A stretch of 64,000 nt of DNA from Dactylosporangium siamense (lineage in GTDB: Bacteria; Actinomycetota; Actinomycetes; Mycobacteriales; Micromonosporaceae): contig NZ_BONQ01000033.1 in NCBI RefSeq assembly GCF_016862795.1, positions 1 through 64,000 of the forward strand, in the 5' to 3' direction. Positions 10,837 through 50,822 of the stretch are shown one piece after another. The notes beneath the pieces were generated by a model. It was given only the letters and a program-made list of their open reading frames with translations. It did not search any database and was not told the DNA's origin. Each line of letters opens with the position of its first letter. The first letter of the stretch is position 1. Made by a program: the position numbers and the translations under genes.

Positions 10837-11553
10837 GTGCAGCAGCTGTACCCGGAGCCCGGACCAGTCGACCAGGCAGCGCTCATCGACCTGTACGCGC
10901 CGCCGCCCGAGCCGTCGATCAGGGTGAACTTCGTGGCGAGCCTCGACGGGGCGGGCACGCTCGGCGGGAAGTCCGCGGGGCTCTCGGGCCCGGAGGACAA
11001 GCGGGTCTTCGGGATCCTGCGGATGCGCTGCGACGCGCTGGTCGTCGGCGCCGGCACGGTCCGCGACGAGGGCTACCGGGCCCTGCGGCTGGACGCGGAG
11101 CGCAGGGCATGGCGGCTGGCGCACGGCCTGAGCGAGTTCCCGACCCTCGTGATCGTCTCGGGGCGTGGCGACCTGGACCCGGCGCAGCCCGCCCTCGCCG
11201 ACGCCCCGGTCCGGCCGATCATCGTGACCACCCGGCACACCGCGGTGCGGGACCTCGAGGAAACGGCCGACGTCATCCGGGCGGGTGACGGGCACGTGGA
11301 CCTGCGGGAGGCGGTCCGGCAGCTGCGGCAGCGCGGGTTCGCGCAGCTCCTCAGCGAGGGCGGCCCGATACTGTTCGGATCACTCACCGTGGCGGGGCTC
11401 GTCGACGAGCTGTGCCTCACGGTGTCGCCGTTGCTCGCCGGGCCCGGAGCGGGCAGGATCACGGCCGGACCGCACCTGCCGACACCCGAAGCGCTCACGC
11501 TGCGTCACGCCCTGCTGGCCGATGGTCAGCTGCTGCTGCGGTACGGGCGCTGA
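10837..11553 (+). CDS. RibD C-terminal-domain (pyrimidine reductase family) protein
   Basis: Protein of 238 residues with the dihydrofolate-reductase-like fold of the RibD C-terminal domain: VNFVASLDGAGTL near residue 28, LVVGAGTVRDEGY near 68, and LLSEGGPILFGSL near 170, which holds the NADPH-binding glycines. The RibD reductase domain reduces the ribosyl side chain of a riboflavin precursor. This stand-alone form lacks the deaminase half and is far from any rib genes, so it may act on another pyrimidine or dihydrofolate-like substrate. The GTG start at 10837 follows the small cysteine-rich gene closely. Confidence 0.85.
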   Translation: MQQLYPEPGPVDQAALIDLYAPPPEPSIRVNFVASLDGAGTLGGKSAGLSGPEDKRVFGILRMRCDALVVGAGTVRDEGYRALRLDAERRAWRLAHGLSEFPTLVIVSGRGDLDPAQPALADAPVRPIIVTTRHTAVRDLEETADVIRAGDGHVDLREAVRQLRQRGFAQLLSEGGPILFGSLTVAGLVDELCLTVSPLLAGPGAGRITAGPHLPTPEALTLRHALLADGQLLLRYGR

Positions 11554-11578: not shown

Positions 11579-11621
11579 TTGTCCACACCCCTGTGGACAA
11601 GTGTCCCCAACCTGTGGACAG
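11579..11621. promoter_or_regulatory. DnaA-box-like cluster / hairpin upstream of the herA-like gene
   Basis: TTGTCCACA at 11579-11587 and its exact inverse TGTGGACAA at 11592-11600 both match the actinobacterial DnaA-box consensus. TGTGGACAG at 11613-11621 differs by one base. The first two also form a perfect 9-bp hairpin with a 4-nt loop 26 bases after the reductase stop codon, so a terminator is the alternative reading. The next gene starts at 11752. Confidence 0.5.
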
Positions 11622-11751: not shown

Positions 11752-13506
11752 ATGGACGCCAACAAGGACGGGCCGATCGTCGGCCGGGTGCTCGGCACCG
11801 CCGACGCCACCCCGCTGACGTTCTGGGTCGCCGTGAACGAGGACGCCTACCTCCAGCTCGACGACGTCGTCGTCACCGAGCGTGAGCTCCCCGGCCAGCC
11901 GTCGGTGCGGATCGCCGGCGTGGTCACCGCGGTCCGGGCCCGGCACGAGGGGGTCGTGTTCGACTCCGACGTGTTCCTGGTCGCCGACGGCACCCTGCCG
12001 GCCACGGTGCAGGAGGCCGCCGAGATCACCACGACCCGGGTCGACCCCGAGGTCTACGTGCCGCCGACGCCGGGCGCGGTCGTCCACCGGGCCCAGGGCG
12101 ACGCCAGGGCCGGCGCGCTGTACTTCGACCGGATGGACCGCACGATCCCGATGGGGTTCGGGCGGGACGGCGCGGCGATGTTCCTCAACGCGGACTTCCT
12201 CGACGGCAGCCGCGGCGCGCACGTGTCCATCTCCGGCATCTCCGGGGTGGCGACGAAGACGAGCTTCGCGACGTTCCTGCTCTACTCGGTGTTCCGGTCC
12301 GGGGTCCTGGGCGGCGCCGGCGAGACCGCCAACACCCGCGCGCTGATCTTCAACGTCAAGGGCGAGGACCTGCTCTTCCTGGACTATCCGAACAGCCGCC
12401 TGGACGCCACGACGGAGGCGGCATACGCGCGGCTGGGCCTGGTCGCCGGGCCGTTCCCCGACGTGCGGGTCTACGCGCCGCCGCGGGCCGGGGACTCCTC
12501 CGGCACGCCCGATGTCAGCAGCCGGCTGACCGGCGTCGACAGCTTCTACTGGACGCTGCAGGAGTTCTGCGCCGACCGGCTGCTGCCATACGTGTTCGCC
12601 GACGCCGACGACGAGCGGCAGCAGTACACGATGGTGGTCCACTCGGTGACGGCGCACCTGGCGCGCATCGCCCAGCCGGCCGAGGGCGGCGTCGCCGTCG
12701 ACGGCACCCGGCTCAACTCCTACGCGGACCTCGTCGACTACCTGGTCGAGCAGATCACCGACGACTCGACCCGGGGCCAGTGGGCCGGCAGCGCGGTCGG
12801 GCTCGGCACCGTCAACGCGTTCGCGCGCCGGCTGATCGGCAGCAAGAAGGACCTGTCCCGGCTGATCCGCGGCGACCTCGCCACCCGCCGCCCGCACGCG
12901 ATCAACACGGCCGAGAGCGCCCAGGTGACGGTCGTCGACCTGCACAACCTGCCGGACCGGGCGCAGCGTTTCGTGGTCGGTGTGACGCTGCGCAGCGAGT
13001 TCGAGCGCAAGGAGAAGGCCGGCACCGCGAAACCGCTGCTGTTCGTGGTCCTCGACGAGCTCAACAAGTACGCGCCGCGCGAGGGCACCAGCCCGATCAA
13101 GGAGGTGCTGCTCGACATCGCCGAACGCGGACGGTCCCTGGGCGTCGTGCTGATCGGCGCGCAGCAGACCGCCAGCGAGGTCGAGCGGCGCATCGTGGCC
13201 AACTCCGCGATCCGGGTCGTCGGCCGGCTCGACCCGGCGGAGGCCTCCCGCCCCGAGTACGGGTTCCTGCCGCCCGCCCAGCGGCAGCGGGCGCTCCTCG
13301 CCAAGCCGGGCACGATGTTCGTGTCGCAGCCGGAGATCCCGGTGCCGCTGTGCATCGAGTTCCCGTTCCCGTCCTGGGCGACCCGGCCGGCCGAGGCGGG
13401 CCCGCCGCCCAGCTCGACGCTGCGCTCGATCGCGCAGGCCAACGACTCGTTCGCCGTCGTCGCGAGAGTGGGCGGCGGCATCGCGGACGACGAAATCCCG
13501 TTCTGA
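11752..13506 (+). CDS. herA: HerA-like ATPase (DUF87/FtsK-HerA superfamily)
   Basis: Protein of 584 residues, inferred to form a hexameric DNA-pumping motor. An N-terminal beta-barrel (HAS-barrel-like, residues about 8-80) precedes the ATPase core. The P-loop is at 161-171 (SGISGVATKTS), the Walker B at 434-440 (LDELNKY), and an arginine-rich RGRSLGVVLIGAQQ block follows, as in HerA. The P-loop has Ala-Thr where Gly-x-Gly is usual before the lysine. The ATG at 11752 is chosen because GGGGG lies eight bases upstream. It is the first gene of a run with SbcD, SbcC and a NurA-like nuclease. HerA and NurA work together in DNA end resection in archaea. Confidence 0.82.
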   Translation: MDANKDGPIVGRVLGTADATPLTFWVAVNEDAYLQLDDVVVTERELPGQPSVRIAGVVTAVRARHEGVVFDSDVFLVADGTLPATVQEAAEITTTRVDPEVYVPPTPGAVVHRAQGDARAGALYFDRMDRTIPMGFGRDGAAMFLNADFLDGSRGAHVSISGISGVATKTSFATFLLYSVFRSGVLGGAGETANTRALIFNVKGEDLLFLDYPNSRLDATTEAAYARLGLVAGPFPDVRVYAPPRAGDSSGTPDVSSRLTGVDSFYWTLQEFCADRLLPYVFADADDERQQYTMVVHSVTAHLARIAQPAEGGVAVDGTRLNSYADLVDYLVEQITDDSTRGQWAGSAVGLGTVNAFARRLIGSKKDLSRLIRGDLATRRPHAINTAESAQVTVVDLHNLPDRAQRFVVGVTLRSEFERKEKAGTAKPLLFVVLDELNKYAPREGTSPIKEVLLDIAERGRSLGVVLIGAQQTASEVERRIVANSAIRVVGRLDPAEASRPEYGFLPPAQRQRALLAKPGTMFVSQPEIPVPLCIEFPFPSWATRPAEAGPPPSSTLRSIAQANDSFAVVARVGGGIADDEIPF

Positions 13507-13522
13507 GAAAGGACAACCACCG

Positions 13523-14674
13523 GTGCGGATCCTGCACACCTCGGACTGGCACGTCGGCAAGGTCCTGAAAGGACAGTCGCGGGCCAACGACCACATCGCG
13601 GCCCTCAAGGCGCTCGTCGACGTGGCCGAGGCCGAGCAGCCCGACCTGGTGATCGTCGCCGGTGACCTGTACGACTCCGCCAGCCCGCCCGCCGACGCCA
13701 CGAAGATCGTCACGCGGGGGCTGTCGGCGCTGCGCAAGACCGGCGCCGACGTGGTCGTCATCGGCGGCAACCACGACAACGGCCAGGCCCTCGACGCGCT
13801 GCGGCCGTGGGCGGACGCCGCCGGGATCACCATCCGCGGCGCCCTGACCAGGCCCGAGGAGCTGCTGCTGGAAGGGCGGACGAAGGACGGCGAGGAGTGG
13901 CGGCTGGCCGCGCTGCCGTTCGTGTCCCAGCGCTACGCGGTCCGGGCGGCGGAGATGTTCGACCTCAGCGCCGCGGAGAGCGCCCAGTCCTACGCGCACC
14001 ACATCGGCGGGCTGCTGGCGACCCTGGCGCAGGGGTTCGGCCGGGACACCGTCAACCTGATCACCGGGCACCTGACGGTCATCGGCGCGACGATGGGCGG
14101 CGGCGAGCGCGAGGCGCACACCATCATGGGCTACGCGGTGCCGGCGTCGGTGTTCCCGTCCTCGGCGCACTACGTGGCGCTGGGACACCTGCACCGCGCG
14201 CAGGTCGTCAACGGGCCCTGCCCGATCCGGTACTGCGGCAGCCCCCTGCCGATCGACTTCGGCGAGGAGGAGAACTTCTCCGCCGTCGCGATCGTCGACG
14301 TCACCACGAGCACCGCCGCGCGGGTCCGCGAGGTGCCGCTGCCGGTCGCCACCCCCCTGCGGACCGTCCGGGGCACCCTCACCCAGCTGTCCACGTTGGA
14401 CACCGGCGAGGCGTGGCTGCGGGTGTACGTGTCGGAGCAGCCGCGGGCGGGCCTGCGCGAGGAGGTCCAGGAGCTGCTGCCGAAGGCCCTGGAGGTGCGC
14501 ATCGACCCGAAGCTGCTGCCCGACCCGAAGGCCGCCGAACGGGCCGCGGCCCGGGCCGGCCGGTCCGCGGGCGAGCTGTTCTCCGACTACCTCGGCCAGA
14601 AGGGCCACGCGGACGAGGCCACGGTCAAGCTGTTCCACCAGCTGCACGACGAAGTTCAGGAGGCGAGGAACTGA
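13523..14674 (+). CDS. sbcD: Exonuclease SbcCD subunit D (Mre11 family)
   Basis: Calcineurin-like nuclease of 383 residues. The metal-binding motifs are in order: HTSDWHVGK (D8, H10), VAGDLYD (D48), GGNHDN (N83, H84), TGHLTV and ALGHLH. With SbcC it cuts hairpins and processes broken DNA ends in an Mn-dependent way. The GTG start at 13523 follows the HerA-like gene by 16 bases, and the stop is one base before the sbcC ATG, so the genes form an operon. The C-terminal capping domain is present (EVRIDPKLLPD near residue 328). Confidence 0.94.
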   Translation: MRILHTSDWHVGKVLKGQSRANDHIAALKALVDVAEAEQPDLVIVAGDLYDSASPPADATKIVTRGLSALRKTGADVVVIGGNHDNGQALDALRPWADAAGITIRGALTRPEELLLEGRTKDGEEWRLAALPFVSQRYAVRAAEMFDLSAAESAQSYAHHIGGLLATLAQGFGRDTVNLITGHLTVIGATMGGGEREAHTIMGYAVPASVFPSSAHYVALGHLHRAQVVNGPCPIRYCGSPLPIDFGEEENFSAVAIVDVTTSTAARVREVPLPVATPLRTVRGTLTQLSTLDTGEAWLRVYVSEQPRAGLREEVQELLPKALEVRIDPKLLPDPKAAERAAARAGRSAGELFSDYLGQKGHADEATVKLFHQLHDEVQEARN

Positions 14675-14675
14675 C

Positions 14676-17153
14676 ATGCGACCCATTCGTTTGGACATGG
14701 ACGGGTTCACCGTGTTCCGGCAGCCGACCACTGTGGACTTCACCGACACGGACTTCTTCGCGCTGATCGGGCCGACCGGCTCCGGCAAGTCGACGATCCT
14801 CGACGCGATCACGTTCGCCCTCTACGGCACCGTCCCCCGCTGGGGTGACCGGCGGGCGATCGCCAACGCCCTCGCCCCGTCGGCGACCGAGGCCAGGGTC
14901 CGGTTCGTGTTCGAGTCGGCGGGCGTGCGCTACGTCCTGGCCCGGGTGGTCCGCCGGGACGGCAAGGGCGCGGTCACCACGAAACACGCCGGCCTGGAGG
15001 CGCTCCCCCACGGCTTCGACCTGGCCCGGTTCGACACCGGGATCAGCGCCGAGGACATGGGCACCGTGCTCGCCGGCACCCCCAACGAGGTGGACCTGGC
15101 GGTGCAGACCGTGATCGGGCTGCCCTACGAGCAGTTCACCAAGTGCGTGGTGCTGCCGCAGGGCGAGTTCGCGGCGTTCCTGCACGCGAAGCCGGCGGAG
15201 CGGCAGAAGATCCTCGTGAATCTGCTGGGGCTCGACGTGTACGGCCAGATCCGCGAACGCGCGAACACCCTCGGCGGCGCCGCGGACGCGAAGCTGAAGG
15301 TGCTCGGCGAGCAGCTCGCCGGGATGTCCGATGTGGACGACGCGGCCCTGGCCGCCGCGGCGGCGAAGGCGGCGGCGCTCAGGACGCTCACCGACGGCGT
15401 CGACCGGATCGGTCCCCAGCTGGACGACGCGGCGAAGCTCGCGGTCGCCGCCGCGGAGACCCTGACCGGCCTCGACACCGAGATCGACCGGCTGACCCGG
15501 CTGCGGGTCCCCGCGGACGCCGGCACCCTCGCGGCCGGTGCGGCCGCCGCCCGCAGCGCGGTCACCGCCGCCGTCGACGGGGCCCGGGCCGCCGAGGAAC
15601 GCGAGGAGAAGCTGCGCGGCGAGCTGCAGGCGGCCGGCGACCAGACGGCGCTGCGGCGGCTGCTGGACGCGCACGGCGAGCGCGACCGGCTCGCCGCCGA
15701 GGCGGCAACCGTGCACGGGACCGTCGCCACGGCCGAGCGCGAGCACGCGAAGGCGACCGGGGCGCTGGGCGTTGCCCGTACCAAGGCGAAAGACGCGATG
15801 GAAGCCCTGGAGGCGGCACGGGAGGCCTACCAGACCGCGGTCGCCGTGGACCGGGCCACCGCATTGCGCCCGCACCTGCGGGTCGGCGACGACTGCCCGG
15901 TGTGCACCCAGACGGTCCAGGTGTTGCCGGAGACCCCGCACGAGCCGGCGGTCGCCGCGGCGAAGGCGGCCGGCGACGCGGCCCGCAAGCGCAGCGACGC
16001 CGCCGAACGGGTCGTCGCCGAGCAGGACAAGGTCGTGCGCGACCTCGACCGGGGCCTCGCCGCCGCGAAGGCGCACGCCGAGCAGGTCGACGCCCGGCTG
16101 TCCACACTGGACACCGCGCTGGACGGGGCGCCGGCACCCGAGGCGCTGCGCCGCGACCTCGACGCGATCGCGAAACTCCACAGTGGGCTGGAGCGGGCCG
16201 GGGCCGAGGTCCGCAAGGCCCGCGAGGCGCACCGCAAGGCCGCCGGCGCCGCCGACAAGGCCGAGGACCAGCTGCGGGCCGCCTGGAAGGCGTTCGACGC
16301 GGCCCGCGACGCACTCGCCGCGTTCGGGCCGCCGCCGGCCGACCGCGACGACCTCGCCGACGCCTGGGCCACGCTGACCGGCTGGGCCGGCACCGCCGCC
16401 GGTGAACGGCAGGCCCGGCGGCCGGCCGCGGTCGGGGCGGTCCAGGACGCCGAGGCGCGGGTCACCACCGTCCGCGACGACCTTCGCGCCCTGTTCGCCG
16501 GCGCCGGACTGCCCGCGCCCGGCACCGACCCGGCCCGCGAGGCCGCGGTCGCCCTCGAACGGGCCGAGGCCGCCCACCGGCGGATCGAGGAACGCCGCGC
16601 GGAGGCGGACCGGCTCCGCGGCCACCGCGACGAGGTCGCCAAGGAGGCGCAGGTCGCCAAGGCCCTCGCCCAGCACCTGCGGGCCGACCGGTTCGAGCGG
16701 TGGCTGCTCGCCGAGGCCCTCGACACGCTCGTCGACGGCGCGTCGAGCACCCTGCGGGAGCTGTCCGGCGGGCAGTACGACCTCGGCCACGACAAGGGCG
16801 AGTTCTACGTCGTGGACCACCACGACGCCGGGCTGCGCCGCGCGGTGCGGACCCTGTCCGGCGGCGAGACGTTCCAGGCGTCCCTCGCCCTCGCGCTCGC
16901 CCTGTCGGAGCAGCTCGCCGGGATGTCGACGTCGGCGGCGAGCCTCGAGTCGATCGTCCTCGACGAGGGCTTCGGCACCCTCGACCAGTCCACCCTGGAC
17001 ACCGTCGCGGCGACCCTGGAGGCCCTCGCCGCCCGCGGCGACCGGATGGTCGGCGTCGTCACGCACGTCGGCGCCCTCGCCGAACGGATCCCGGTCAGGT
17101 TCGAGGTCCGCCGGGACGCCCGGACCGCCCGCGTGGAACGGATCGGGCTGTGA
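14676..17153 (+). CDS. sbcC: Exonuclease SbcCD subunit C (Rad50 family SMC-like ATPase)
   Basis: ATPase of 825 residues. The Walker A is at residues 31-38 (GPTGSGKS). Long alanine-rich coiled coils flank a zinc hook CPVC at 407-410, and the signature LSGGETFQASLALALALSEQL near 728 is followed by the Walker B (IVLDEGFGTLD). With SbcD it forms the Mre11-Rad50-type complex that tethers and processes DNA ends. It is shorter than E. coli SbcC (about 1,050 residues), meaning shorter coiled-coil arms, as in many actinobacteria. An AGGAGG lies just before the ATG. The stop codon overlaps the GTG of the NurA-like gene. Confidence 0.94.
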   Translation: MRPIRLDMDGFTVFRQPTTVDFTDTDFFALIGPTGSGKSTILDAITFALYGTVPRWGDRRAIANALAPSATEARVRFVFESAGVRYVLARVVRRDGKGAVTTKHAGLEALPHGFDLARFDTGISAEDMGTVLAGTPNEVDLAVQTVIGLPYEQFTKCVVLPQGEFAAFLHAKPAERQKILVNLLGLDVYGQIRERANTLGGAADAKLKVLGEQLAGMSDVDDAALAAAAAKAAALRTLTDGVDRIGPQLDDAAKLAVAAAETLTGLDTEIDRLTRLRVPADAGTLAAGAAAARSAVTAAVDGARAAEEREEKLRGELQAAGDQTALRRLLDAHGERDRLAAEAATVHGTVATAEREHAKATGALGVARTKAKDAMEALEAAREAYQTAVAVDRATALRPHLRVGDDCPVCTQTVQVLPETPHEPAVAAAKAAGDAARKRSDAAERVVAEQDKVVRDLDRGLAAAKAHAEQVDARLSTLDTALDGAPAPEALRRDLDAIAKLHSGLERAGAEVRKAREAHRKAAGAADKAEDQLRAAWKAFDAARDALAAFGPPPADRDDLADAWATLTGWAGTAAGERQARRPAAVGAVQDAEARVTTVRDDLRALFAGAGLPAPGTDPAREAAVALERAEAAHRRIEERRAEADRLRGHRDEVAKEAQVAKALAQHLRADRFERWLLAEALDTLVDGASSTLRELSGGQYDLGHDKGEFYVVDHHDAGLRRAVRTLSGGETFQASLALALALSEQLAGMSTSAASLESIVLDEGFGTLDQSTLDTVAATLEALAARGDRMVGVVTHVGALAERIPVRFEVRRDARTARVERIGL

Positions 17154-18103
17154 AGTTCCACGTCGACGCCTGGGACCCCTCCTACGGGGTCGCGTTCGAG
17201 GCCGGCGGCTCGGACGGCCCCCAGGCGCAGAGCAGCGCCCAGATCCAGCCCGACGTCGAGCTGCCCGCCCCGGCGTGGCGGGCCGTCGACGCTCCCTTGG
17301 GTCTGCGCCCACCCGCCACGGTCCTCGTCGTCGACGGGGTCCAGCGCATCGACGCGCGCGTCTGGGCGACCGACGACGACGGCGTCACCCACCCCGGCGT
17401 CGCCGCGTCCTACGCCGCCGGGGTCGTGCGGTGCGACCTGGACCGGGGCGCCGCCGCCATCGCCACCACCCGCATCGAACGCGGCCTGTTCACCCCGTTC
17501 GAGCTCGCCCCGCCGCTGGTCGCCGGCGCGATCCGCTACCCGGCCCGGCGAATCGCCCGCGGCGAACCCAAGGACCTGGCGCTGGGCGTGCAGCGGCACA
17601 TGCGGGCGCTCGAGGTCGGCGTGTCCAGCGAGGAACGCGACGACGGCGACCTGCTCATCGTCGACGGCCCGCTGCAGGAGCGCGCGCACCTGCCCCGGGC
17701 TCTCGGCTACATCAAGACCCACCGGGTCGAGTACCTGCCGCCGGAGCTGACGGCCGTCGTCACCCGGCTGCGCAGCGGGCAGCGCTCCCCCGTGTTCCTG
17801 CTCGGCACGTCATGGCACCGGTTCGCCTGGTACCTGCGGCTGCCCGGACCCGAGGGATCGCCGTGGGCGGGCATCGTGCGGGCCGAATGCTCCGCGGACC
17901 TGCTCCCCGCCGACGCGATCGCCCTCGCGCACCTGTCCGCCGTCACGCTGCCCCGGTTCGCGTCCAGCGCCTACAAGGACCCGCGGGCGCCGCAGAACCT
18001 CATCCCGATCGCCGGGCTGGAGCGTAAGCTGCGCGCCATGCTCGGCGACGCCCGCCTGCTGCACCGCGCCCTTGCCAGAACCGCGGCCAGGACCGTGGCG
18101 TGA
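17150..18103 (+). CDS. nurA: NurA-like 5'-3' nuclease
   Basis: Protein of 317 residues with the NurA-domain layout: an acidic motif at the end of the first strand (VLVVDGVQ, D62), a second DG motif (LLIVDGPL, D172), a conserved THRVEYL block, and a C-terminal DPRAPQNLIPI segment before a last helix. NurA degrades DNA strands, driven by the HerA pump. The GTG start overlaps the sbcC stop (GTGA), so the two are co-translated. Its presence with HerA-like, SbcD and SbcC genes is the strongest support, since the fold diverges quickly. Catalytic residues are inferred, not proven. Confidence 0.75.
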   Translation: MKFHVDAWDPSYGVAFEAGGSDGPQAQSSAQIQPDVELPAPAWRAVDAPLGLRPPATVLVVDGVQRIDARVWATDDDGVTHPGVAASYAAGVVRCDLDRGAAAIATTRIERGLFTPFELAPPLVAGAIRYPARRIARGEPKDLALGVQRHMRALEVGVSSEERDDGDLLIVDGPLQERAHLPRALGYIKTHRVEYLPPELTAVVTRLRSGQRSPVFLLGTSWHRFAWYLRLPGPEGSPWAGIVRAECSADLLPADAIALAHLSAVTLPRFASSAYKDPRAPQNLIPIAGLERKLRAMLGDARLLHRALARTAARTVA

Positions 18104-19002
18104 TGAGGACCTTCCCGACCCCGCCGCGGTTCGACCTGGCCGGCACCCTGCAGGGCCTGGCCCTGATCCACGGCGACCCGACGCTGTCGGTCGGGGCCCG
18201 GGAGGGGTGGTTCGCCACCCGTACCCCTTCCGGCGCGGGAACACTCCATCTGGCGTTGACGGGAGCTTCGCTGGTCGCGACCGCCTACGGGCCGGGCGCC
18301 GACTGGTTGCTGGACCGGGCCGACGCCGTCGCCGGCCTCCGCGACGACGTGACCGGCTTCGCCGAGCTCGCCCGGCAGCACCCGCTCGTCCACCGCCTCG
18401 CCCGCGAGCACTCCGGCCTGCGGATCGGCGCCACCGGCCGGGTCTTCCACCACCTGGTGCCGGCCGTCCTCGGGCAGAAGGTGACCGGCAAGGAGGCCCG
18501 CGACGGCTACGTGCGGCTGCTGCGGCACTTCAGCACCGACCCCGCCCCCGGCCCCAACCCACGGTTGAAGCTGCCCCCGGAGCCGGCCGCGATCGCCGCC
18601 GCGCCCTACTGGGTCTTCCACCCGTTCGGCATCGAACAGAAACGCGCCGACGCGCTGCGCCGGGTCGCCGCCGAGGCGTCCCGCCTGGAACGCTGCGCCA
18701 CGGCCGCGGAGGCCACCGCCCGCCTGGTGAGCATCCGCGGCATCGGCCCGTGGACCGCGGCCGAGGTCACCCGCGCCGCCTACGGCGACGCCGACGCCGT
18801 CTCGGTCGGCGACTACCACATCAAGAACGTCGTCACGTACGCCCTGACCGGCGCCCCACGCGGCACCGACGAGCACATGCTGGAGCTGCTCGCCCCGTAC
18901 GCCGGCCACCGCGGCCGCGTCTGCGGCCTCCTAGCCGCCGCCGGCATCACGGCCCCAAAGTTCGGCCCGAGAGTAGCTTTGCGGGCATTCGCCCGGTATT
19001 AG
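18103..19002 (+). CDS. AlkA-type DNA glycosylase (HhH-GPD family)
   Basis: Protein of 299 residues. The C-terminal half has the helix-hairpin-helix (LVSIRGIGPWTAAEVT, about 207-222) followed by the catalytic aspartate D237 in VSVGDYHIKN, as in 3-methyladenine DNA glycosylase II. The family removes alkylated bases and starts base-excision repair. The start is ATG at 18103, overlapping the NurA stop as TGATG; a GTG at 18100 is the alternative. Overlap with the nuclease gene makes it the fifth gene of the HerA-SbcD-SbcC-NurA run and suggests shared expression under DNA damage. Confidence 0.88.
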   Translation: MRTFPTPPRFDLAGTLQGLALIHGDPTLSVGAREGWFATRTPSGAGTLHLALTGASLVATAYGPGADWLLDRADAVAGLRDDVTGFAELARQHPLVHRLAREHSGLRIGATGRVFHHLVPAVLGQKVTGKEARDGYVRLLRHFSTDPAPGPNPRLKLPPEPAAIAAAPYWVFHPFGIEQKRADALRRVAAEASRLERCATAAEATARLVSIRGIGPWTAAEVTRAAYGDADAVSVGDYHIKNVVTYALTGAPRGTDEHMLELLAPYAGHRGRVCGLLAAAGITAPKFGPRVALRAFARY

Positions 19003-19050
19003 CTGTTTCTAGCTGCCCCACCGCTTCTGTTTCTAGCTGCCCCACCGCTG
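19003..19050. repeat. Two tandem 24-bp direct repeats
   Basis: The 24-base unit starting CTGTTTCTAGCTGCCCC occurs at 19003-19026 and again at 19027-19050, with one difference at the last base. It begins directly after the stop of the glycosylase gene and before copy A of the dispersed repeat. Confidence 0.75.
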
Positions 19051-19054
19051 GCGC

Positions 19055-19290
19055 GGCGGGTCCCGCCGGGGGATTCTCACCCCGGACCCCCAATGCTCGC
19101 GTTGCTCGCACGACCTGCGCCCCGAGGGCGCGGTCGACTCGGACGCTCGCGCGTGGCAGTTGAAGGACCGGGGGTTCAGGTTTGGAGGCGCTCAAGGTCC
19201 TTCGTCTGGCTCGCCCGCCATGCGCGCGAGACGACGGAGGCGGGCCCGTCCGATGGACGCGGGCGCTGCCCCACTACCGGACTGTGGGAA
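19055..19290 (+). repeat. Dispersed repeat, copy A
   Basis: Contains the shared blocks GGGGATTCTCACCCC, AATGCTCGCGTTGCTCGCAC, CTGCGCCCCGAGGGCGCGG and GCGCGAGACGACGGAGGCGG in this order. Copy B (19355-19574) is the inverse and copy C (50564-50795) has the same direction. The left edge (GGCGCGGCGGGTCCCGCC) differs from copies B and C. Short frames run through it but carry no recognisable protein. Edges are approximate. Confidence 0.78.
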
Positions 19291-19354
19291 GCGGCGACTC
19301 CCTGGCTGTCGCAACATCGCCGGGGGTGCCCACATTGGTGATCGACGGGGTTTT

Positions 19355-19574
19355 GTGGTGGACGGGCCCGCCCCGGTCGTCTCGCGCGCATGGCGGGCGA
19401 GGAGGACGACAGACCTTGACTGCCTGGGACCTGGACCCCCGGTCTTCAAATTGCCACGCGCATGCGTCCCAGTCGACCGCGCCCTCGGGGCGCAGGTCGT
19501 GCGAGCAACGCGAGCATTGGGGGTCCGGGGTGAGAATCCCCCACTGCTCTTCCGGCCGAAGGCCGCCGCGGAAG
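19355..19574 (-). repeat. Dispersed repeat, copy B (inverted)
   Basis: Reverse-complement copy of the element at 19055-19290 and 50564-50795. Its outer edge carries a GGCC-stem hairpin around 19553-19564 (CGGCCGAAGGCCG), shared with copy C. It ends 19 bases before the DNA ligase start, so it may hold that gene's promoter. Together with copy A it can form a long hairpin or be an inversion hot spot. Confidence 0.78.
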
Positions 19575-19592
19575 TAGCAGTACTGTGACAGG

Positions 19593-20711
19593 GTGGATCT
19601 GCCGGTGATGCCGCCTGTTGAGCCGATGCTGGCCAAGAGCATTCCCAACCTGCCCAGTGTGGAGGGGATGAGCTTTGAGCCCAAGTGGGACGGGTTCCGG
19701 TGCATTGTGTTCCGGGACGGGGACGAGGTTGAGCTCGCCAGTCGGGGCGGCAAGACGCTGACCCGGTACTTTCCCGAAGTGGTCGCGCAGGTGCTGGCGC
19801 AGTTGCCGGTGCGGTGTGTGGTCGACGGGGAGATCATCGTGATCCGGCGGGACTCGGGGCAGCCGAAGCTCGACTTCGAGCTGCTCGGGCAGCGGATCCA
19901 CCCGGCCGCCTCCCGCGTCAACATGCTCGCCGAGGCGACCCCGGCCTCGTTCGTGGCGTTCGACCTCCTCGCCATCGGTGACGAGTCGCTGATCGAGGTG
20001 GGGTACGCCACGCGCCGGGCCAGGCTCGTCGACGCCCTGAAGGGCGTCAGTGCGCCGGTGCACGTGACACCGGTGACGACGGACATCGAGGTGGCCCGTG
20101 ACTGGTTCGAGCGGTTCGAGGGCGCCGGGCTCGACGGGGTGATCGCGAAGCCCGCCGGCAGCGCCTACGAGCCCGGCAAGCGGACCATGTTCAAGATCAA
20201 GCATGCGCGGACCGCGGATGCCGTGGTGGCCGGGTTCCGGTGGCACAAGGACGGGCCGATCGTGGGGTCCTTGCTGCTCGGGCTGTATGACGAGGAGGGC
20301 CGGCTGCACCACGTCGGGGTGTCCGCGTCGTTCACCCGGGAGCGCCGGGCGGAGCTGGTCGAGGAGCTCGCGCCGTACCGGGAGGACATCGTCGACCACC
20401 CGTGGAACTGGGCGGGTCAGATCCCCGGTGCCGCGGCCGCGAGCCTCGACGCCGTGCCGGCCGGTGACGCCGCGACCCGGTTGCCGGGTGGGCTCAGCCG
20501 CTGGTCGGGCAAGAAGGACCTGTCGTTCGTGCCGCTGCGCCCCGAGCTCGTCGTCGAGGTCGGCTATGACGCGATGGAGGGCGACCGGTTCCGGCACACC
20601 GCTCAGTTCAAGCGCTGGCGGCCGGACCGGGAGCCGCACTCGTGCACGTATGACCAGCTCGACCGGCCGATCCGCTTCGACGTCGAGTCCGTGCTGGCGG
20701 GGCGGCCTTGA
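19593..20711 (+). CDS. ligC: ATP-dependent DNA ligase (LigC type)
   Basis: Ligase of 372 residues. The adenylation motif is KWDGFR with the nucleophile lysine K31, followed by the nucleotidyltransferase motifs VVDGEII, VAFDLLAI and GLDGVIAKP and the motif V lysines MFKIKH. A C-terminal OB-fold covers about 230-350. It seals nicks using ATP, and actinobacterial LigC is linked with end joining and base-excision repair. The GTG start at 19593 gives the normal N-terminus PPVEPMLAKS. A LigD-type polymerase lies 1.5 kb away on the other strand. No Ku gene is in the window. Confidence 0.92.
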   Translation: MDLPVMPPVEPMLAKSIPNLPSVEGMSFEPKWDGFRCIVFRDGDEVELASRGGKTLTRYFPEVVAQVLAQLPVRCVVDGEIIVIRRDSGQPKLDFELLGQRIHPAASRVNMLAEATPASFVAFDLLAIGDESLIEVGYATRRARLVDALKGVSAPVHVTPVTTDIEVARDWFERFEGAGLDGVIAKPAGSAYEPGKRTMFKIKHARTADAVVAGFRWHKDGPIVGSLLLGLYDEEGRLHHVGVSASFTRERRAELVEELAPYREDIVDHPWNWAGQIPGAAAASLDAVPAGDAATRLPGGLSRWSGKKDLSFVPLRPELVVEVGYDAMEGDRFRHTAQFKRWRPDREPHSCTYDQLDRPIRFDVESVLAGRP

Positions 20712-49453: not shown

Positions 49454-50560
49454 ATGCGCAAAATCATGCTTGTCGCTGCGGTTTTTCTGGCCTCGTTCGC
49501 GCCGGCCGTCGACGCCCACGCCGCTCAGGCCGCCACGGTGGTCTCCCCCAAGCGCCCACTGAACGTCCGGGCCGGCAGCGCCGTGTGGACCGCCCAGGTG
49601 CGGACCCTGCCGCACGGCGCCGCGGTCTCCATCGACTGCCAGGTCAAGGGCCAGCTGATCAACCAGGGCTCGGTCCGCGTCACGGACCAGTGGGACCGGC
49701 TCACCGACGGCTCCTACGTCTCCGACGCGTGGATCCGCCGCCCCGCCGCCGCCATCCCCGCCTGCGGCCCGGCGGCCCCGGTCGCGCCGGCCGCCGTCGC
49801 CGCCGCGGCCGCGGTCACGACGACCACGGGCACCGTCGCCTCGGGCGGCACCCCGCTGAAGGCCCGCACCGCCCCCGTGCACACCGCACCACTCATCGCC
49901 GCCCTGCCCAACGGCACCCAGCTCACCCTGGTCTGCCAGCAGCGTGGTGAGAACATCGCCGGCTCCCAGCGCGTCACGCCGATGTGGGACCGCCTGCCGG
50001 AGGGCACGTACGTGTCCGACGCCTACGTGCGCCGCACCGCCACCCCACCGCCGTGCACCGCGGCGAACCAGCCGGTCGCCGCGGCCGCCGCGCCCTCCAC
50101 CGGCGGCGACTGGACCAGCCCGCTGCCCGGCTTCCGGGCCCGCCCCGGCTTCCGCACCGCCAACAACCCCAACCACATCGGCGTCGACATCATGTCGTTC
50201 ACCGGCACCCCGATCCACGCCGCCTCGGCCGGCACCGTCCTCGAGGTCGTCTGCAACATCGAGGCCGGCCACAGCTGCGACCAGGCCGGCAGCGCGTCGA
50301 TCGGCGGCTGCGGCTGGTACGTGAAGCTGCAGCACGAGGGCGGCATCTCGACCCTGTACTGCCACATGGTCCGCAAGGCCCTCGTCCAGCCCGGCCAGAA
50401 GGTCAAGGCGGGGCAGGTCATCGGCTACGTCGGCAGCTCCGGCAACTCGTCCGCCCCGCACCTGCACTACGAGGTCCACATCAACGCCCCGCCGACCGGC
50501 CCGCAGAACGCCATCGACCCGCTGCCGTTCATGCGCACCCACGGCGCGGAGATCGGCTGA
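49454..50560 (+). CDS. Secreted M23-family peptidase with two SH3-like domains
   Basis: Cell-wall endopeptidase of 368 residues. It has a signal peptide (MLVAAVFLASFAPAVDAHAAQA) and two SH3b-like repeats of similar sequence, about residues 30-97 and 128-200, each ending in YVSDAWIRR or YVSDAYVRR. An M23/LytM domain follows with the zinc ligands in NHIGVDI and HLHYEVH. It should cut peptidoglycan cross-links. The ATG at 49454 begins the signal peptide; GGGGGTG lies about six bases upstream. The SH3b parts probably bind the wall. Confidence 0.9.
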   Translation: MRKIMLVAAVFLASFAPAVDAHAAQAATVVSPKRPLNVRAGSAVWTAQVRTLPHGAAVSIDCQVKGQLINQGSVRVTDQWDRLTDGSYVSDAWIRRPAAAIPACGPAAPVAPAAVAAAAAVTTTTGTVASGGTPLKARTAPVHTAPLIAALPNGTQLTLVCQQRGENIAGSQRVTPMWDRLPEGTYVSDAYVRRTATPPPCTAANQPVAAAAAPSTGGDWTSPLPGFRARPGFRTANNPNHIGVDIMSFTGTPIHAASAGTVLEVVCNIEAGHSCDQAGSASIGGCGWYVKLQHEGGISTLYCHMVRKALVQPGQKVKAGQVIGYVGSSGNSSAPHLHYEVHINAPPTGPQNAIDPLPFMRTHGAEIG

Positions 50561-50563
50561 TTC

Positions 50564-50795
50564 TTCCGCGGCGGCCTTCGGCCGGAAGAGCAGTGGGGGA
50601 TTCTCACCCCACACCCCCAATGCTCGCGTTGCTCGCACGACCTGCGCCCCGAGGGCGCGGTCGACTCGGACGCGTGCGCGTGGCCTATGAAGACCGGGGG
50701 TCCAGGTTCGAGGCGCTCAAGGTCTGTCGTCCGGCTCGCCCGCCCTGCGCGCGAGACGACGGAGGCGGGTCCGACCACCGGACCGGGCGCTGCCC
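50564..50795 (+). repeat. Dispersed repeat, copy C
   Basis: Begins four bases after the peptidase stop with TTCCGCGGCGGCCTTCGGCC and carries the same ordered blocks as copies A (19055-19290) and B (19355-19574), 31 kb away. Similarity to copy B extends over the whole length. It appears non-coding, and no terminal inverted repeats or target duplications were seen. Confidence 0.78.
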
Positions 50796-50822
50796 CCGCT
50801 TCCTGCGGATGGGCCTGCCCTG

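Follow-up and report, generated by a model that had tools for sequence, protein, structure and literature searches.

It has been shown that in archaea herA, mre11, rad50 and nurA are encoded in one cluster (Constantinesco 2002/2004, as cited in PMC2288612 and PMC8708640). In Sulfolobus acidocaldarius, Rad50, Mre11 and HerA co-precipitate and NurA was not recovered with them, according to the excerpt of PMC2288612, and a 2026 study judged the complex of Thermococcus unsuited to end resection (PMC12977600). PMC4663267, PMC9960219 (section 3) and PMC12977600 treat the bacterial role of HerA-NurA, and any cooperation of the pair with SbcCD, as an open or disputed matter. Deinococcus radiodurans is devoid of Mre11-Rad50 according to PMC12977600, and deletion of its nurA and herA genes increased the resistance to far-UV and mitomycin C about 10-fold (PMC9960219 section 14). 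DNA-end machines of this kind have hardly been studied in bacteria.

We analysed a stretch of 64,000 nucleotides from Dactylosporangium siamense (the window; contig NZ_BONQ01000033.1, positions 1 to 64,000). A sequence-only reading had found there, at 11752-19002, five consecutive plus-strand genes spaced by 16 bases or less, and had taken them for an archaeal-style end-resection module extended by a glycosylase. When the coordinates were re-read, they agreed with that description (Table 1). The herA/sbcD junction is a 16-base gap and sbcD/sbcC a 1-base gap, while sbcC/nurA and nurA/alkA overlap by 4 bases each; the latter overlap shrinks to 1 base if AlkA starts at ATG 18103 instead of GTG 18100. 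With a probability of about 0.7, we consider the locus to be a conserved bacterial DNA-end-processing operon. Of the earlier interpretation, NurA and a true four-gene module stood, whereas archaeal descent, the membership of AlkA and a complex for alkylation damage did not.

Table 1. Features of the herA-nurA locus and its surroundings in the window.
Feature	Position	Strand	Length	Basis or remark
RibD_C-type pyrimidine reductase	10837..11553	+		PF01872, E 4.5e-31
DnaA-box-like cluster, presumed operon promoter	11579..11621	.		three TTGTCCACA 9-mers or complements
HerA-type DNA translocase	11752..13506	+	584 aa	phmmer to Deinococcus HerA 7f6d_B
SbcD, Mre11-type nuclease	13523..14674	+	383 aa	TIGR00619, 4lty
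SbcC, Rad50-type ATPase	14676..17153	+	825 aa	TIGR00618, 6s6v
NurA-type nuclease	17150..18103	+	317 aa	7f6d_H, 1zup, AlphaFold model
AlkA-fold DNA glycosylase	18100..19002	+	300 aa	model against 1mpg; neighbour, not conserved module member
Stretch with repetitive, largely palindromic element	19003..19592	.		between AlkA and ligase genes
ATP-dependent DNA ligase (PRK08224 family)	19593..20711	+		NF006078, E 3.6e-163, above cut-off

SbcD matched TIGR00619 above its cut-off (E 1.9e-53; 181.9 bits, cut-off 77.65) and structure 4lty at E 1.2e-41. For SbcC, the best family model was TIGR00618 (E 7.7e-79), with 265.8 bits below the cut-off of 478.5; structure 6s6v was matched at E 2.7e-45, and a CPVC zinc-hook motif was read by eye. 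We take 6s6v and 4lty to be the E. coli SbcC and SbcD proteins. For both genes the SbcCD models score far above the archaeal Mre11 and Rad50 models.

HerA matched the Deinococcus chain 7f6d_B at E 6.1e-151 in phmmer, and the remaining HerA chains of the Protein Data Bank, presumably those of anti-phage HerA, at E 0.0035 and above. Its Walker A K169/T170 and Walker B D435/E436 align with K175/T176 and D487/E488 of Deinococcus HerA, and D206, R443, R461 and R500 with D220, R495, R513 and R552 (key residues as listed in the excerpt of PMC9960219), so that the Walker motifs, the trans-acting arginines and the pore arginines of HerA translocases are all present. These positions are conserved in 44 to 47 of 47 aligned HerA sequences (K169, D435, E436 and R461 in all 47, R443 in 46, R500 in 44). 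NurA was likewise matched to Deinococcus by sequence (7f6d_H, E 3.9e-21) and to Thermotoga (1zup, E 1.7e-7). That the product of 17150-18103 is a NurA was borne out by structure prediction: the AlphaFold model (pLDDT 82.5) has the RNase H-like NurA fold, with matches to 7f6d_G (E 4.1e-17, TM 0.70) and 1zup_A (E 8.2e-15, TM 0.68). D62, K189 and R279, unchanged in 45 of 45 aligned NurA sequences, align with D53, K201 and R309, the catalytic Asp, Lys and Arg of Deinococcus NurA in PMC9960219 section 12; in the sequence alignment, the 7f6d NurA chain numbering equals the Deinococcus residue numbers plus 20. W8, present in 43 of the 45, corresponds to Deinococcus W8 by position only, beyond the aligned region.

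HerA and NurA were missed or remained below threshold in Pfam and NCBIfam; NurA obtained 16 bits with PF09376 (cut-off 21), and the whole-genome search with the NurA family model gave no match. We read this as a limit of the model and not as absence of NurA, because the Deinococcus match and the predicted fold are unambiguous. The archaeal entries 4d2i, 2ygk and 3tai (codes taken from PMC9960219) were absent among the HerA and NurA matches up to E 10, so the label "archaeal-style" is not supported in the sense of descent. Judged by sequence, the HerA-NurA pair is bacterial-type rather than archaeal, because HerA is so closely related to that of Deinococcus.

The four genes HerA, SbcD, SbcC and NurA are also neighbours in related genomes. 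Among 197 genomes of the phylum, HerA was found in 38, and in 30 of these, the window counted, the quartet lies in one same-strand stretch, in two gene orders, with a largest gap of 4.3 kb and with 73 of 87 measured gaps below 100 bp. In two of the other eight, HerA sits 11-14 kb from the rest but keeps the strand; five are cut by contig ends, and one (G113) has NurA on a separate contig, where the preceding 10.9 kb contain no SbcC. With a threshold of E <= 1e-27, NurA was detected in 35 of these 38 genomes, the HerA contig ending inside the module in the other three. For SbcD, with a threshold of E <= 1e-10, the count was 37 of 38, versus 42 of 159 genomes without HerA; the HerA genome without SbcD at this threshold was G149. 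In named relatives the quartet is adjacent and co-directional at 73 of 80 loci, and the remaining seven loci start inside the module at a contig end. NurA itself is present in 199 of 200 Micromonosporaceae genomes. The linkage of the four genes is beyond chance, since it recurs across the phylum and in these 73 loci. In a tree of SbcD, 17 of 20 solo proteins form a clade separate from the module SbcDs, while L200, L217 and L218 fall on the module side, with HerA and NurA not found nearby; most module SbcDs thus lie on a branch other than that of the usual SbcD of actinobacteria. Of the 73 named loci, 64 have a RibD_C gene upstream of HerA in the same orientation, at 73-4341 bp (less than 300 bp in 38 loci).

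Another family carries a divergent version of NurA-HerA; in L099, genes resembling Mre11 and Rad50 come after it. The entire quartet is also carried by a Streptomyces plasmid, where HerA is annotated as "ATP-binding protein" and NurA as "hypothetical protein", so that the module can hide in annotation. Genes for an ImmA/IrrE-family protease and a restriction endonuclease lie near this plasmid quartet.

The phylum-wide recurrence of the cluster and the family-wide presence of NurA are strong genomic evidence that SbcCD and HerA-NurA belong together in bacteria. By analogy with homologues, the genes would be co-transcribed and their products would form a complex. SbcC/SbcD, the bacterial Rad50/Mre11 complex, would recognise and open blocked or hairpinned ends and hand them over to the HerA hexamer, which would pump the duplex into the NurA dimer; this might then cut the strands, degrading mainly the 5' strand. 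The physiological outcome could be a 3' tail for RecA or the degradation of an unwanted end. The module might resect DNA ends, but it might also degrade or restrain them: the Deinococcus mutants gain resistance to UV and mitomycin C, where a simple repair factor would predict sensitivity, and the 2026 archaeal study doubts resection. The co-precipitation of Rad50, Mre11 and HerA in Sulfolobus counts for the operon reading; the missing NurA in that experiment counts against it, as do the Deinococcus and Thermococcus results, the separate NurA of G113, G149 with its undetected SbcD and the three module-side solo SbcDs. A search upstream of herA for SOS or PafBC damage boxes, which likewise bears against it, gave nothing convincing. 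The genome of the window encodes both subunits of AdnAB, a helicase-nuclease that processes DNA ends; therefore, the module would be an extra route. The genomes surveyed indicate hosts for genetic testing, including this one with both the module and AdnAB.

An unexpected observation was made upstream of herA, where the 9-mer TTGTCCACA or its complement occurs exactly at 11579-11587 and 11592-11600 and with one mismatch at 11613-11621. The 12.7 Mb genome contains a single exact inverted pair of the 9-mer with 30 bases or less between the copies. Table 1 of PMC4285127 lists TTGTCCACA for both Streptomyces coelicolor and Mycobacterium tuberculosis as a DnaA box of high affinity. Such a cluster lies ahead of herA in this genome as well as in the Actinoplanes group and was seen upstream in some related genera. 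This suggests, as a separate and weaker point than the operon itself, that in Dactylosporangium and the Actinoplanes group expression may be coupled to the initiation of replication. That the core SbcCD-HerA-NurA machine is under direct DnaA control and serves collapsed forks by a second route, independent of AdnAB, is a tentative idea that we rather doubt. If true, DnaA boxes at the herA promoter would adjust the production of end-processing enzymes to the replication state in these groups, a regulatory idea that is directly testable.

The sequence-only reading had also considered action against foreign DNA. If the module were primarily an immune nuclease, destroying surplus linear or invading duplex DNA with repair as a secondary task, the better survival of the damaged Deinococcus mutants (PMC9960219), the patchy distribution of HerA in the phylum (38/197) and the genes near the Streptomyces plasmid quartet would fit, as would the anti-phage function of other HerA-nuclease pairs (PMC11291478, PMC12977600). 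Some matches point the same way: TdpAB is a distant fold match of NurA (E 6.3e-5), and among the defence models of PADLOC, SbcC is matched by mad3 (E 1.1e-27, part) and LmuB (E 7.8e-19, over 16-532 of 611 profile positions), HerA by mad8 (E 4.4e-10, part). However, the SbcC matches can be read as a shared Rad50-like ATPase, HerA is closest by far to Deinococcus HerA, and NurA matched no PADLOC model (nor did AlkA). Since NurA belongs to the core genes of this family and RibD_C stands upstream of HerA in 64 of the 73 named loci, we regard a primarily immune role as improbable.

Still less probable is that operon inheritance merely keeps the genes together while SbcCD and HerA-NurA act in separate pathways. 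It agrees with the separate NurA of G113, with the listing of nurA/hepA and sbcCD as separate helicase-nuclease pairs in Thermus (PMC13140390, in excerpt) and with the statement in PMC4663267 that a link between SbcCD and HerA-NurA in Deinococcus is still unknown. However, two gene orders unite the same functions, the displaced HerA of two genomes remains within 15 kb, and the divergent pair of the other family again occurs with Mre11- and Rad50-like genes in L099. This union despite rearrangement counts against mere neighbourhood, since inheritance of a single operon would not require it.

The fifth gene encodes an AlkA-type glycosylase, with both the AlkA fold (pLDDT 86.8; E 8.8e-12 and TM 0.74 against E. 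coli AlkA 1mpg) and the catalytic Asp; 58 of 62 rows of the alignment show the helix-hairpin-helix and D238, with a gap there in the remaining four, and the score with Pfam HhH-GPD is below the cut-off (15.9 versus 26.2 bits). AlkA adjoins NurA in a minority of genera: at 5/5 testable Dactylosporangium and 3/3 Planosporangium loci, in one named metagenome-assembled genome and in the family genomes G008 and G011. Elsewhere it lies 1-9 kb away (982-5764 bp in Micromonospora, with AlkA located in 28 of 40 loci, and 4956-7639 bp in 10/10 Actinoplanes loci), is on the opposite strand (2/4 Asanoa and the single Pseudosporangium locus) or was not found within the locus. The spacer in the one Micromonospora locus examined, L112, includes sigma factor and lipoprotein genes, and AlkA had no match in 47 stretches outside the family (L053-L099; 46 with NurA or HerA). 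The ligase gene follows AlkA after 36-67 bp in the five Dactylosporangium loci reaching that far, versus the element-bearing interval 19003..19592 here; the palindromic element has inverted arms at 19068-19181 and 19429-19542 and, with 40 of 139 candidates scored, at least 36 matching pieces genome-wide, of which the query is one. We regard AlkA and the ligase as neighbouring repair genes that point the same way; if they are co-transcribed at all, this would hold for some genera only. A five-gene pathway for alkylation-induced breaks with AlkA as working partner of NurA, for which the start/stop overlap in the window, the adjacency in some genera and the retained fold and catalytic Asp speak, is therefore very improbable given this scattered placement, and nothing in the analysis favours a single complex of that kind.

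Among the systems nearest to this locus is NurA-HerA of D. radiodurans (7f6d, 7wrw, 7wrx; PMC9960219), which belongs to the same families, shares the catalytic and translocation residues checked and is likewise encoded as a pair; in the window SbcD and SbcC accompany the pair, while in Deinococcus nurA and herA were deleted jointly "as an operon" according to that paper. The archaeal herA-mre11-rad50-nurA cluster co-encodes the same four functions, but the sequences here are bacterial-type and the host also has AdnAB. E. coli SbcCD (6s6v, 4lty) is clearly homologous to SbcC and SbcD of the window, whose SbcC is shorter (825 versus 1048 aa) and whose pair travels with HerA-NurA. The HerA anti-phage systems (HerA-Sir2 and HerA-DUF4297, PMC12977600 in excerpt; TdpAB, 8wfd) likewise combine a HerA-type ATPase with a nuclease, but the nucleases are other ones and the HerA similarity is much weaker. 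Finally, AdnAB, the mycobacterial-type helicase-nuclease, would share with the module the general job of DNA-end processing, but it does so with unrelated UvrD-type motors and PD-(D/E)XK nucleases.

The five genes set out in the sequence-only reading, a plus-strand run with tight spacing, are present as claimed when the window is read. In family-model searches SbcD scored above the cut-off of its curated model, SbcC matched the SbcC model best with a score under that model's cut-off, and HerA and NurA were either missed or fell below the cut-offs. Sequence comparison with the Protein Data Bank was unambiguous for the latter two: HerA matched Deinococcus HerA with an E value of 6.1e-151, and NurA matched the Deinococcus and Thermotoga NurA proteins with E values of 3.9e-21 and 1.7e-7, respectively. 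An archaeal origin of the module is unsupported by these comparisons.

Positions of the features discussed (window coordinates)
Feature	Position	Strand	Remarks
RibD_C gene	10837-11553	+	Upstream of herA
DnaA-box-like cluster	11579-11621		Between RibD_C and herA; two exact and one 1-mismatch copies of TTGTCCACA
herA	11752-13506	+	
SbcD gene	13523-14674	+	
SbcC gene	14676-17153	+	
NurA gene	17150-18103	+	
AlkA-fold glycosylase gene	18100-19002	+	
Repetitive, largely palindromic intergenic element	19003-19592		Between alkA and ligase gene
Repetitive, largely palindromic intergenic element	50557-50796		
Ligase gene	19593-20711	+	

The fold proposed for the fourth protein was borne out by structure prediction. 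An AlphaFold model built from 43 sequences of the window and its named relatives (mean pLDDT 82.5) found Deinococcus NurA (E 4.1e-17, TM 0.70) and Thermotoga NurA (E 8.2e-15, TM 0.68) as its best solved matches, with endonuclease V and the TdpAB complex next, far behind. Residues D62, K189 and R279 are invariant in 45 aligned proteins and fall, in the sequence alignment, on Deinococcus D53, K201 and R309 (chain numbers 20 higher), mutants of which lost nuclease activity according to PMC9960219. W8 is kept in 43 of the 45, its correspondence to Deinococcus W8 being by position only. The checked residues among those which that paper reports for Deinococcus HerA are likewise kept.

As had been supposed, HerA, SbcD, SbcC and NurA also lie side by side in related genomes. 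Of the 80 named relatives, all Micromonosporaceae in the NCBI taxonomy with six Dactylosporangium as the nearest, 73 have the order HerA-SbcD-SbcC-NurA on one strand, and the remaining 7 loci start within the module; NurA was detected in 199 of 200 genomes of the family. When 197 genomes were sampled evenly across the phylum, 38 proved to have a full-type HerA (at least 180 bits in the best segment), and 35 of these also had NurA at E <= 1e-27; at E <= 0.001, HerA was found in 64 genomes and NurA in 37. All four genes lie on one strand in 30 of the 38 HerA genomes, ordered HerA-SbcD-SbcC-NurA in 10, including the window, and NurA-HerA-SbcD-SbcC in 20. In two genomes (G069 and G091), HerA keeps the same strand and sits upstream at a distance of 11-14 kb, and the module is truncated at contig ends in five (G086, G149, G192, G198 and G208). 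In genome G113, HerA-SbcD-SbcC on one contig run off its end and NurA is found on another contig, where the preceding 10.9 kb hold no SbcC; this genome (loci L060 and L061) is the sole HerA genome of the sample whose NurA looks unlinked. One change of gene order is needed on each of the HerA, NurA and SbcD trees, which are quick trees of 38 rows that omit loci L059, L082 and L096 (one full-length protein missing in each) and show the HerA of G069 and G091, taken from a second fetched stretch, under the label of their NurA stretch. The branch separating the two orders has low support on the HerA tree (42).

Genome G159 has two copies of the module (L078 and L096), the second highly divergent. 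In a one-contig genome, NurA is read in two overlapping frames (L047:8045-9009), by sequencing error or a real change, and the SbcD match is likewise in two pieces.

Beyond the full-type proteins, the 64 HerA matches include a distant HerA in a further 17 genomes, all of one actinobacterial family, and 9 weak matches. A divergent NurA adjoins HerA in all four of those 17 that were fetched, scoring 47-59 bits with a profile built here. This divergent NurA-HerA group of another actinobacterial family is represented by loci L093, L097, L098 and L099. In L099, whose divergent NurA gave no Pfam match, a Mre11-like phosphoesterase and then a Rad50-like ATPase follow downstream.

At E <= 1e-10, SbcD was found in 37 of the 38 genomes with HerA (G149 being the exception) versus 42 of the 159 others. 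On a quick tree of 61 SbcDs, 17 of the 20 solo SbcDs, L098 not being counted as solo since HerA is adjacent, form a clade (starred) separate from the module SbcDs. Because solo SbcDs mostly form their own clade, the tree indicates that the SbcD accompanying HerA-NurA is a largely separate lineage. Both kinds occur together in at least one genome (G192), and the second, divergent copy of G159 (L096) has a long branch and is placed with a distant group. The solo SbcDs L200, L217 and L218 lie on the module side of the tree; no HerA or NurA was found near these SbcDs (L200/L219, L217/L220 and L218), which are possible cases of partner-gene loss. One of the genomes with such an SbcD also has a second, ordinary SbcD.

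The fifth gene encodes a glycosylase of the AlkA fold that retains its helix-hairpin-helix motif and catalytic Asp. Its proposed membership in the conserved module was not borne out and is ruled out by synteny, since it adjoins NurA in a minority of genera. The two matches are 2-23 bp apart in 5 of the 6 Dactylosporangium loci (the other one is truncated), 26-41 bp apart in 3 of 3 Planosporangium, 74 bp in one metagenome-assembled genome, and 38 bp and 14 bp in two family genomes (G008 and G011, respectively). Across 40 Micromonospora loci, AlkA lies 982-5764 bp from NurA in 28 and was not found in 12; the distance is 4956-7639 bp in 10 of 10 Actinoplanes, and 2 of the 4 Asanoa loci have AlkA on the other strand. 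In congeners (5 loci), 36-67 bp separate AlkA from the ligase gene downstream; in the window this distance is 590 bp and includes the palindromic element. Its inverted arms measure 114 and 81 nt, and it has at least 36 matching pieces in the genome, on contigs C22, C69, C123, C137, C145 and others.

Upstream of herA lies, unexpectedly, a cluster of boxes identical or nearly so to the DnaA box that Table 1 of PMC4285127 lists as high-affinity for Streptomyces coelicolor and Mycobacterium tuberculosis. The 12.7 Mb genome holds 37 exact copies versus 21 of the reversed control, and exact copies less than 100 bp apart occur at three sites: the herA promoter, the sequence immediately before dnaA (more boxes lie between dnaA and dnaN), and contig C65 (2013-2067). 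The last (L223:2013-2075) is a second small cluster away from oriC, between genes for a DUF5679 protein and an ABC1-type kinase. Allowing one mismatch, at least one box was found upstream of herA in 25 of 73 named loci and at least two in 19, versus 526 and 88 of 20,000 random 300-base stretches. Upstream of the neighbouring genes of the same loci, at least one box was present for RibD_C in 2/68, SbcD 0/73, SbcC 4/79, NurA 2/79, AlkA 0/61 and ligase 0/32. By genus, herA boxes were seen in Dactylosporangium (5/6), Actinoplanes (9/10) and Paractinoplanes (6/6), and in none of the Micromonospora (0/34), Asanoa (0/4) or Planosporangium (0/3) loci. Clusters upstream of herA were noted at loci L104, L105, L107-L109, L117, L149, L151, L154, L162 and L176. 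Because the loci are related, these cases represent few independent events, and the cluster is missing from most family loci examined. Another regulator sharing its site with DnaA may act at the herA promoter.

Regulation of herA by DNA damage was unconvincing for both systems considered. SOS-box sites (up to 4 mismatches) were found in 65 of 73 herA-upstream stretches versus 455 of 600 random ones; for PafBC-box sites, with up to 3 mismatches allowed, the counts were 12 of 73 and 87 of 600. Locus L163 has, at the start codon, an SOS-box site with 1 mismatch. No sigma-70 promoter emerged from a scan.

Mobility of the module was considered and rejected. Among 72,556 plasmid records NurA occurred in 4, including one of 11.85 Mb that carries the label plasmid, and HerA was found in 3 of 50,697 phage records, each below 27% identity and one a terminase. 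A complete quartet (L196) is carried by the 452 kb plasmid NZ_CP134205.1 of Streptomyces sp. BB1-1-1 (420631-428200), near genes for an ImmA/IrrE-family protease and a restriction endonuclease; its HerA, 65% identical to that of the window, and its NurA are annotated only as 'ATP-binding protein' and 'hypothetical protein'.

We consider that the module probably processes DNA ends in a single pathway together with SbcCD (probability about 0.7). In the most likely working order, its steps transferred from homologues onto the anatomy shown here, SbcCD would process blocked ends, and a HerA hexamer would then drive duplex DNA into a NurA dimer, which would cut mainly the 5' strand and leave a 3' tail, or degrade the end. 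That HerA-NurA replaces AdnAB is ruled out in the window's genome, where both AdnA and AdnB are encoded; therefore, the module is an additional route. AdnA at E <= 1e-60 was found in at least 40 of the 197 genomes (19/38 with HerA and 21/159 others), in a strict search scoring 3 candidates per genome, so that absences carry little weight.

Published phenotypes are mixed: PMC9960219 describes Deinococcus double mutants whose resistance to far-UV and mitomycin C is raised about 10-fold, and PMC12977600 suggests antiviral DNA destruction, not resection, for the Thermococcus complex. Hence, the outcome of end processing is left among resection, degradation and restraint of recombination. The review PMC8708640 mentions homologues of NurA and HerA in Actinobacteria. 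A literature search, mostly not full-text and with a 2004 comparative paper outside its scope, turned up no account of such a quartet in bacteria. Both the four-gene cluster of archaea and the NurA-HerA complex of Deinococcus are already known; the points of interest here are the repeated linkage with SbcCD and the presence of DnaA boxes.
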